Source: Chloroflexota bacterium
Lineage (GTDB): Bacteria; Chloroflexota; Dehalococcoidia; DSTF01; JACRBR01
Reading direction: 5' to 3'
NCBI GenBank assembly: GCA_021813085.1
Contig: JAKAMA010000039.1
Span: 1-11,514 of the forward strand
DNA length: 11,514 bases
In this document: in pieces, positions 6,920-11,343 of the stretch
How positions within the stretch are numbered: the stretch's first letter is position 1
Layout: every line of letters begins with the position of its first letter
Made by a program: the position numbers and the translations under genes
Notes under the pieces: model-generated
Databases searched by the model: none
What the model saw: the letters and a program-made list of their open reading frames with translations, nothing else
Told to the model about the DNA's origin: nothing

Positions 6920-6925
6920 CCTCGC

Positions 6926-7194
6926 ACAGGCGAAGACGGAGCCGAGTACGCCGCCGAGCCGCTGCTGAGCGAATCCGGGTACGGTGCGAGCCGGATGCAG
7001 CGTCGGTGGCCGAAGATCCCTCCCGAGCCGGCGCGCGGAACCCCGGCGGGGCAGTAGGCGCGCCCGGAAGCCCACCGTTCCCAGGGCAGGGCGTGATCGC
7101 GCCCGGAATGAGTGCCCCGCCGAGAGGCGGGGAACAAGGGTGGTACCGCGGGTCGAACGTCGAGCCCGTCCCTTTCGTGGGGGCGGGCGTTTTG
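6926..7194 (+). ncRNA. T-box riboswitch leader, isoleucine-type, transcriptional
   Basis: This leader has the parts of a T-box in order. Stem I base: GGAG 6938-6941 pairs with CTCC 7020-7023. The specifier loop has AGTA at 6945-6948 on the 5' side and GAA at 7012-7014 on the 3' side, with ATC (Ile) at 7016-7018. Next comes an 8-bp helix, GCCGCCGA with TCGGTGGC, and then the distal arm 6961-7001 (GCTGC with GCAGC, AATCCGG with CCGGAT), carrying the conserved GAGCGA and GGTGCGAG loop sequences. A Stem III hairpin, CCCCGCC-GAGA-GGCGGGG, is at 7115-7132. The T-box core AAGGGTGGTACCGCG is at 7136-7150, where TGGT would pair with the ACCA end of uncharged tRNA; the T fits a discriminator A, as in tRNA-Ile. 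It ends in an intrinsic terminator. Uncharged tRNA-Ile should stabilise the antiterminator and switch on the downstream unit. The exact specifier register is my reading, but it agrees with ileS downstream. Confidence 0.93.
7164..7194 (+). terminator. intrinsic terminator of the T-box
   Basis: GCCCGTCCC at 7164-7172 pairs over nine bases with GGGGCGGGC at 7180-7188 (one T-G pair), followed by GTTTTGTT. The 5' arm overlaps the 3' arm of the alternative antiterminator, which uses AAGGG and GCGGG of the T-box core, as expected for mutually exclusive folds. The left inverted repeat of the DUF559 unit starts at the last bases of this T-rich tail. Confidence 0.9.
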
Positions 7195-7240
7195 TTACCT
7201 CACCCCCGGCCCCCTCTCCGACGAGTGGAGAGGGGGAGCA
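7194..7240 (+). repeat. left inverted repeat of the DUF559 unit
   Basis: It begins GTTACCTCACCCCCGG and contains CCCCCTCTCC, loop GACGAGT, GGAGAGGGGG, a perfect 10-bp hairpin stem. It is the inverted partner of 7749-7795 and of 7937-7980. Confidence 0.85.
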
Positions 7241-7330
7241 CGAGCCTTGCGGGTCCGCTGCGCCGCGGTCTGCGTCGCCGGCATCGGCGCGATCAAGGGT
7301 GATAGGGGGACGTCACGGGAAGGGTGCGTG

Positions 7331-7744
7331 ATGGGACGAGGTGAGACGACCCGCCCGAGGTGGAAGATCTCGCCGGAACTTCGGCGGCGGATGATGCTGG
7401 TCGCACGTGATCTGCGTGCGAGGAGCACGCGGGGGGAGGACCTGCTGTGGGAAGGACTGCGCAATCGGAGGCTTCTGGGCCGGAAGTTTCGGCGCCAGCA
7501 GCCGGTCGGGCCATTCGTCCTTGACTTCTACTGCAGCGAGGAGCGGCTCGCCGTCGAAGTGGATGGATTGGTGCACGGACAGCAGCGCGAGGCGGACGCT
7601 GAGCGGCAAGCGTTGCTGGAGACGCTCGGCATTCGCTTTGTGCGCCTGCGAGACGACCTGGTGCGGACCGACCTGCCGTCCGCGCTCCGCACCATCAGCG
7701 CGGCGTTTGGCGCAGCCGGCGAGCTTGCCACGCCGGATCGATGA
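7331..7744 (+). CDS. DUF559 domain protein (Vsr/PD-(D/E)xK-like endonuclease)
   Basis: The 137-residue product is a complete DUF559 protein. It has RSTRGEDLLWEGLRNRRLLG at 31-50, KFRRQQPVGPFVLDFYCSEE at 52-71, LAVEVDGLVHGQQ at 73-85, then ERQALLETLGIRFVRLRDDLV near 91-111. D65, E76 and D78 form the D...ExD pattern of the PD-(D/E)xK/Vsr nuclease fold, so the nuclease core looks intact. The family is very common, but its biological role is not settled. ATG 7331 has GGGAAGGG nearby and gives the normal length; GTG 7328 is an alternative. The gene lies between inverted repeats behind the ileS T-box and so is probably transcribed only when tRNA-Ile is uncharged. The last third of the coding sequence is duplicated at 7824-7932. 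Confidence 0.9.
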   Translation: MGRGETTRPRWKISPELRRRMMLVARDLRARSTRGEDLLWEGLRNRRLLGRKFRRQQPVGPFVLDFYCSEERLAVEVDGLVHGQQREADAERQALLETLGIRFVRLRDDLVRTDLPSALRTISAAFGAAGELATPDR

Positions 7745-7748
7745 AGGT

Positions 7749-7795
7749 AGCTCCCCCTCCCCGCCTGTCGGAGAGGGGGCCGGGGGTGAGGTAAC
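7749..7795 (-). repeat. right inverted repeat of the DUF559 unit
   Basis: Read on the minus strand it starts GTTACCTCACCCCCGG, identical to the left repeat for 29 bases. On the plus strand it ends GGGGGTGAGGTAAC, which places a GGTGAGG six bases before the ATG at 7798. Confidence 0.85.
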
Positions 7796-7797
7796 CC

Positions 7798-7932
7798 ATG
7801 CAACCAAAACTCATACGGCCGGACTTTGTGCGCCTGCGAGACGACCTGGTGCAGGCCGATCTGCCGTCCGCGCTCCGCACCATCAGCGCGGCGTTTGGCG
7901 CAGCCGGCGAGCTTGCCACGCCGGATCGATGA
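7798..7932 (+). pseudogene. chimeric 44-codon ORF: ileS start fused to DUF559 tail
   Basis: ATG 7798 opens a frame whose first 11 residues, MQPKLIRPDFV, match the ileS N-terminus MQPVPTRPDFV, and whose remaining 33 residues repeat the DUF559 C-terminus in its original frame to the TGA at 7930-7932. It arose from the tandem duplication. GGTGAGG at 7785-7791 would serve as a ribosome binding site, so it may be translated, but without the nuclease core or the synthetase domains it is unlikely to have an inherited function. It lies between the T-box and the real ileS start. Confidence 0.7.
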
Positions 7933-7936
7933 AGGT

Positions 7937-7980
7937 AGCTCCCCCTCTCCGCCTGTCGGAGAGGGGGCCGGGGGGTGAGG
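7937..7980 (-). repeat. third copy of the DUF559-unit repeat, carrying the ileS ribosome binding site
   Basis: AGCTCCCCCTCTCC, GCCTGTC, GGAGAGGGGGCC is the right repeat again, with a better stem than 7749-7795 and one extra G in the following G run. Its end, GGTGAGG at 7974-7980, sits three bases before ATG 7984 and is the only Shine-Dalgarno-like sequence for ileS. Confidence 0.85.
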
Positions 7981-7983
7981 TCC

Positions 7984-11343
<3,360 letters not shown>

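Follow-up and report, generated by a model that had tools for sequence, protein, structure and literature searches.

Inverted triplex-type repeats around YcjD/DUF559 nuclease genes: a candidate two-part system of bacterial genomes

The repeats closest in design to those considered here are the PIT/TM_ECO elements of Escherichia coli, intrastrand triplex motifs whose description Holder 2015 (PMC4666352) attributes to Hoyne and Maher. In Holder 2015, these motifs are intergenic and vary between strains, the TM_ECO triplex is stable in vitro by circular dichroism (CD) and nuclear magnetic resonance (NMR), no mobility function could be identified in their vicinity, and no partner gene is named for them. 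A second point of comparison is REP/RAYT, where the RAYT, according to PMC8266576, is a tyrosine (HuH) enzyme working on GTAG-headed hairpins. Here we describe, in an 11,514-nucleotide (nt) stretch from a Chloroflexota bacterium (contig JAKAMA010000039.1; this whole stretch is called the window below), a unit made of one DUF559 nuclease gene between two inverted copies of a repeat, which may represent a widespread two-part system of a YcjD/DUF559 nuclease gene and a dispersed flanking repeat.

The window repeats share with PIT/TM_ECO the succession of C-arm, loop, G-arm, spacer (3 nt in TM_ECO) and G-rich third strand, as well as their dispersal. They are a variant with shifted arms and a 2-nt spacer, and the published TM_ECO pattern finds no match in the window on either strand. 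With REP/RAYT the unit shares its layout, in which a dispersed repeat, present as two inverted copies, encloses one enzyme gene; it departs from REP/RAYT in the enzyme, which has the PD-(D/E)XK Vsr-like fold, and in the repeat, which has a mirror tail and lacks GTAG. By eye, no GTAG head is present in the three repeat units of the window, and the window protein gave no match to the HUH tyrosine transposase (Transposase_17), matching DUF559 and, below cut-off, MTES_1575. No transposition domain was found among the nine window proteins scanned. The unit would thus work in the manner of REP/RAYT while falling outside that group by its enzyme family and its repeat head; it is most likely a REP/RAYT-like pair made of another enzyme and another repeat. 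An initial annotation of this DNA had suggested that the protein may act on the hairpins as in REP/RAYT: the organisation (inverted repeats, one enzyme gene) is indeed alike, and that the protein acts on these hairpins is something we infer. The unit consists of the following parts:

7194-7239, minus strand: left triplex-type repeat, tail directed away from the DUF559 gene
7227-7236, 7220-7226, 7210-7219 and 7198-7207, minus strand: C-arm, loop, G-arm and mirror tail of the left repeat, with the spacer CC
7331-7744, plus strand: DUF559 (PF04480) YcjD-like nuclease gene, 137 amino acids (PF04480 E 3e-28)
7750-7795, plus strand: right triplex-type repeat, in the opposite orientation to the left repeat, tail directed away from the DUF559 gene
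7753-7762, 7770-7779, 7780-7781 and 7782-7791: imperfect C-arm, G-arm, spacer and mirror tail of the right repeat

The inverted arms are 91% complementary, with 510 nt between them. The framing of the gene by inverted repeats, given in the initial annotation as 47 nt long, is therefore real, at a length of 46 nt; the identity of the first 29 bases of both ends in inverted orientation (counted by eye) and the presence of a single gene between them also hold. Both ends had further been called strong hairpins. Both do fold as single-stranded DNA, the left at -11.5 kcal/mol and the right, with its mismatched C-arm, at -10.1 kcal/mol, but only the left stands out from shuffled sequences (z -1.9 versus -0.4). 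What had been overlooked is the mirror tail, together with a third repeat copy and a T-box leader (see below). The left unit has a mirror score of 1.0 versus 0.4 for a direct copy, and the right one has the same G-arm and tail beside its imperfect C-arm. The host draft genome (2.5 Mb, 77% complete) yielded a single DUF559 gene. The hairpin pattern has 21 matches there, two of them inside the window by reading, and the reversed control pattern has none; beyond the window, repeat copies occupy 19 places among the 40 matches listed. The host matches are more than chance would give.

The association of DUF559 genes with such repeats, spanning many phyla, is in our view established by the controls, which are random placements and neighbouring open reading frames (ORFs); the enrichment that the initial annotation had proposed is strong against both. 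We used two sets. The first comprises 100 fetched DUF559 loci of the host's class plus the window, giving 104 domains (weaker PF04480 matches with E above about 1e-26, and G082, which has an internal stop, were left out). The seed alignment of the profile that yielded these domains included minus-strand loci wrongly translated forward; the spurious hits on the opposite strand that resulted were discarded in favour of the better hit where two overlapped. Setting aside nine domains in stop-to-stop frames longer than 330 amino acids, eight of them with a hairpin at most 250 bp away on each side, and a further 10 with less than 250 bp on one side leaves 85 testable genes. The second set is the best 80 of at least 560 confirmed matches in a public genome scan (17 named phyla, 42 Pseudomonadota, five without a phylum), of which 76 remain after dropping four with less than 250 bp. 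In 67 of the 85 class genes and 67 of the 76 others, each flank has a purine/pyrimidine hairpin no more than 250 bp away; the same holds for 15 of 1178 random placements and, among neighbouring ORFs called mechanically, for 5 of 230. At least one side has a hairpin in 82/85 and 76/76. Hairpin density is 8.4 per kb in the first 100 bp upstream and 9.5 per kb downstream, falling to 0.33-0.71 per kb beyond 500 bp. When a mirror tail is required, both sides qualify in 30/85 class genes and 38/76 others (68/161) and in none of the control ORFs (0/317 and 0/240, that is 0/557), and at least one side in 57/85 and 60/76 (control ORFs 8/317 and 8/240, 16/557). The paired repeats are inverted in 32 of 39 unambiguous loci, with 17 of 56 loci mixed, and an inverted-repeat score of at least 40 is reached at 51 public loci (L223, with a masked N run, being discounted). 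Neither an even spread of the repeat lacking enrichment at DUF559 genes, nor a set of relatives all having the DUF559 gene here without repeats, was seen, although the initial annotation had named both as counter-evidence.

The link to repeats appears to belong to the YcjD-like subfamily, since among loci on viral contigs (63 typed of 80; five were off the typed list and the others dropped have less than 250 bp on a side) two-sided flanking is the rule in close relatives (14/18) but not in more distant ones (1/9 and 0/36). The type of repeat also tracks the nuclease phylogeny, with 29 label changes over 104 labelled loci versus at least 41 in 300 shuffles, and with nearest neighbours on the nuclease tree agreeing in 66% versus 33%.

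Presence of the gene is likewise correlated with repeat number across genomes. The 294 genomes of the class comprise 89 with a strong DUF559 match, 187 free of DUF559 and 18 set apart as having weak matches only (best E above 1e-9). In a search with one arm type, the median number of hairpins per genome is 9 in the first group, 0 in the second, where 96/187 have none, and 0.5 in the third. Within the 19 families that hold both states (60 + 119 genomes, with weak-match genomes and families lacking both states left out), none of 20,000 permutations reaches the observed value (P 5e-5). Matches to the reversed control are scarce over the 294 genomes, mostly 0 and never more than 4 per strand.

The repeat itself runs C-arm, loop, G-arm, spacer and a tail that mirrors the G-arm, the spacer being 3 nt in 106 of 147 units. 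For units with asymmetric arms and a tail (n = 172), the mirror fits better than a direct copy by 143 to 4, with 25 ties, which rejects a tail that is a direct repeat of the arm and a second partner for the C-arm; among 398 distinct units taken without the tail filter, perfect mirrors number 111 and perfect direct copies 15. For the pairing table, the offset was chosen on G positions only and units were kept if all or all but one G matched, so that the G row (G in 980/1012) is largely given by construction and the A row is the informative one. Opposite a G-arm A, the mirror-laid tail has A 181, T 120, G 11 and C 10 times, hence A or T in 301 of 322 cells; the direct-copy control has A 118, T 56, G 92 and C 11 (A or T in 174 of 277). 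Read from the sequences, the tail-arm pairings are those of the triads of an antiparallel purine-motif triplex, and the feature recognised by the enzyme may be the triplex instead of a plain hairpin. A G-quadruplex was rejected as the main design: the commonest arms have four G-runs, but types like AAAGGGGG (tail AAGGGGGATT) fall short of that number, the mirror rule holding in them nonetheless; an NMR argument against the G-quadruplex is given in Holder 2015 (PMC4666352). A transcription terminator was also rejected, inverted copies lying on both sides and no T-runs being noticed by eye at the printed copies.

The window protein scores 98.3 bits against PF04480 (cut-off 20.6) and shares 39 of 117 aligned residues with YcjD. 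Its predicted structure (predicted local distance difference test, pLDDT, 87.7) matches 3hrl, I-Bth0305I and Vsr, in line with the fold assigned in the initial annotation. The match to Tn7 TnsA is weak; TnsA acts together with other Tns proteins. The alignment-invariant residues are present, among them D65, D78, H82 and D89 in its own numbering, and E76 is invariant in alignment A3 and nearly so in alignment A1. With these residues intact and the modelled fold matching the three nucleases, the protein is expected to be active. In the open PMC papers, as far as their accessible text goes, we found no report tying DUF559 or ycjD to repeats (bioRxiv lay outside the search), nor any link to repeats for YcjD, Neisseria 3hrl, Caulobacter VsrA or I-Bth0305I.

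The unit is placed in the intergenic spacer between the T-box leader of ileS and ileS itself, a downstream neighbour that lies outside the element:

6924-7176, plus strand: T-box leader of ileS (RF00230, E 6.5e-15, model positions 1-219 of 219)
7636-7974, plus strand: 188-bp tandem duplication, copies 7636-7786 and 7824-7974, 97% identity
7938-7981, plus strand: third repeat copy, a product of the 188-bp tandem duplication
7984-11343, plus strand: ileS, isoleucyl-tRNA synthetase (tRNA-synt_1 E 2.8e-80 in the ORF 7975-11343)

The T-box match scores 70.2 bits, under the Rfam gathering score of 93, though full length (nothing in an Rfam scan of the window reaches gathering), and its terminator T-run stops just upstream of the unit. 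The tandem duplication takes in the 3' portion of DUF559 together with the right repeat and a start resembling that of ileS, and the third repeat copy has the best single-stranded fold of the three (-14.5 kcal/mol, z -2.5). We compared the ileS site in eight genomes of the host family, reading the spacers by eye; the occupied and unoccupied sites that the initial annotation had proposed to look for exist among these relatives. In the congener G148, the T-box (96.2% over 263 aligned nt), the first kb of ileS (96.3%) and the left 0.9 kb (93.0%) are nearly identical to the window. The DNA between the repeats is 60% alike, with shuffled sequence giving 58-62%, the two DUF559 proteins share 41.5% identity, and the flanking repeats are alike at 38/45 and 37/45 positions. 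Because near-identical flanks thus enclose unlike genes between similar repeats, the DUF559 gene was, on comparison of these sequences, exchanged or inserted twice at one ileS site. Two further genomes (G180 and G085) have short ileS spacers without the unit, and two (G222 and G016) have longer ones without DUF559, the G016 spacer containing a degenerate stretch rich in G; in G051 a unit lies at another position in the same spacer, and in G202 no ileS of this type was found. Three of the host's dispersed repeat sites were compared with its two congeners. G148 has no repeat at two of them, with a short tail-like stretch remaining at one, and a degenerate version at the third; in G016 the repeat is missing from two, and its match at the third stops short of the site. 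At another locus (L004, about 1500-1750, on contig C257 of G000), a repeat and about 200 bp, apparently within a coding stretch by eye, are missing in G148 between flanks that are 93-94% identical. Elsewhere (L081), tandem DUF559 genes with domains 92% identical and matching upstream repeats amount to a recent duplication of a unit.

The same pairing occurs in E. coli, where ycjD is a DUF559 gene between sapF and fabI with TM repeats on its 3' side. In strain 118UI one TM copy overlaps the end of ycjD and is followed by a second, inverted one. At least 80% of the ycjD region is held by 3362 of 5426 genomes, and the three ycjD-less genomes inspected all have an efflux operon at that place (for the operon, see PMC12817139); at these loci (L351, L352-L354) the gap between sapF and fabI is filled either by ycjD with triplex repeats or by the efflux operon. 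In 60 genome rows sampled along the ranking, with the ycjD locus itself counted, TM matches number 12-26 (median 18, n = 37) where ycjD is present and 1-17 (median 3, n = 23) where it is not. A long palindrome unlike the triplex repeats lies across the annotated ycjD start (L351, 2548-2591), where self-regulation is possible. As the source of the E. coli triplex repeats, ycjD, a nuclease gene of K-12 itself, now becomes the prime candidate.

We lean, by a modest degree, towards the view that a Vsr-fold nuclease of the YcjD/DUF559 type recognises and disseminates triplex repeats; recognition, cleavage and enzyme-driven spread of the repeats are steps we infer. In the proposed mechanism, C-arm, loop and G-arm would form a hairpin, with the 3' mirror tail lying antiparallel in its major groove through G.GC, A.AT and T.AT triads. 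The nuclease would recognise this single strand in its folded state, as it becomes exposed at forks during replication or in repair, and may nick at the edge of the folded repeat; by repair or recombination, repeats would then be copied into sites both new and already occupied, occasionally together with the gene that an inverted pair encloses. As a wider and tentative possibility, somewhat short of even in our judgement, YcjD-family nucleases would be the missing enzymes of the bacterial intrastrand-triplex repeats: pan-bacterial, recognising an intramolecular DNA triple helix, driving both spread and exchange of the repeats and of their own genes, and arisen independently of REP/RAYT. To our knowledge, DUF559 would, if this is true, be the first bacterial enzyme linked with such an intramolecular triplex. 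Many of the LTPGPLS-type reading frames in bacterial annotation might also be explained by triplex repeats.

Several observations weigh against dissemination by the nuclease. The closest DUF559 pair within a genome is 43-62% identical in 16 of 19 multi-copy genomes and 82-92% in three (among fetched copies only), and because such paralogues are mostly dissimilar, recent transposition of the gene is seldom seen. Target duplications are not definable, the unoccupied sites of G180 and G085 being too diverged. With a single copy in the host besides, the label of mobile element in the initial annotation is so far unsupported. Across the class, 16 of 187 DUF559-free genomes hold at least 20 hairpins and 5 of 89 with DUF559 have none of the one searched type, and the medians are reversed in 3 of the 19 families (f14, f20 and f33). 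Hairpins are absent from both sides in three of the 85 class genes, and controls often meet one on at least one side (250/1178 random placements, 48/230 ORFs). Without the tail filter the mirror signal is weaker, at 156 better, 53 worse and 189 ties in the 398 units. In E. coli MG1655, TMs lie only 3' of ycjD, the intact copy 168 bp off with degenerate ones between, and the sapF-ycjD gap has a different palindrome and no TM; the link between ycjD and TM counts is confounded by phylogroup. Finally, dimethyl sulphate (DMS) footprinting showed no triplex in vivo, according to Holder 2015 (PMC4666352).

Four other explanations were weighed against nuclease-driven dissemination. DUF559 could be a homing-type parasite, the repeats spreading by other means and serving as an address at which it cuts, with homologous repair copying the gene. 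This is unlikely, as genome-wide repeat number tracks DUF559 presence, within families too, and the window flanks, like most printed flanks of other loci, are two whole inverted copies and not one repeat split by insertion. An improbable alternative is upkeep, with the nuclease clearing triplex or hairpin obstacles and staying near repeats by chance duplications, nothing being mobilised. It would accommodate the co-occurrence of DUF559 and hairpins across genomes, the instability of TM sites in E. coli (PMC4666352) and Caulobacter VsrA, the DUF559 protein to which PMC12907096 attributes the SOS response of cells without the cytosine methylase ScmA; yet an enzyme acting in trans would have no need of repeats, two-sided and mostly inverted, at less than 100 bp from the gene encoding it. 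The repeats might instead be control elements, their hairpins reducing or stopping the transcription of a nuclease gene that could do harm, with escaped copies spreading passively. Their position directly at the edges of DUF559 genes suits this highly improbable idea, against which stand the mostly inverted upstream and downstream copies, their variable distances and an earlier study that found PIT motifs without promoter or terminator activity, as told in Holder 2015 (PMC4666352). Mere coincidence, GC-rich palindromes gathering in any intergenic gap, could draw on the roughly 0.3-0.7 hairpins per kb elsewhere in DUF559 loci and the 48 of 230 control ORFs with one on at least one side, and is refuted by the two-sided controls (5/230 for hairpins and 0/557 with mirror tail, versus 67/76 and 68/161 for DUF559) and the rarity of the reversed pattern in the 294 genomes.

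Three further features of the window lie apart from the unit. Within the ileS frame, before the anticodon-binding domain, two 100-nt direct copies (9987-10200, 91%) with a GC palindrome amount to a repeat insertion in an essential gene, of which G148 seems, by eye, to have a different version. A 52-nt unit occurs in two tandem copies (96%) at 2368-2471. At 860-2257, a reading frame of this apparently bacterial genome contains an archaellin-type domain (PF01917, E 3.4e-25, frame residues 290-451).
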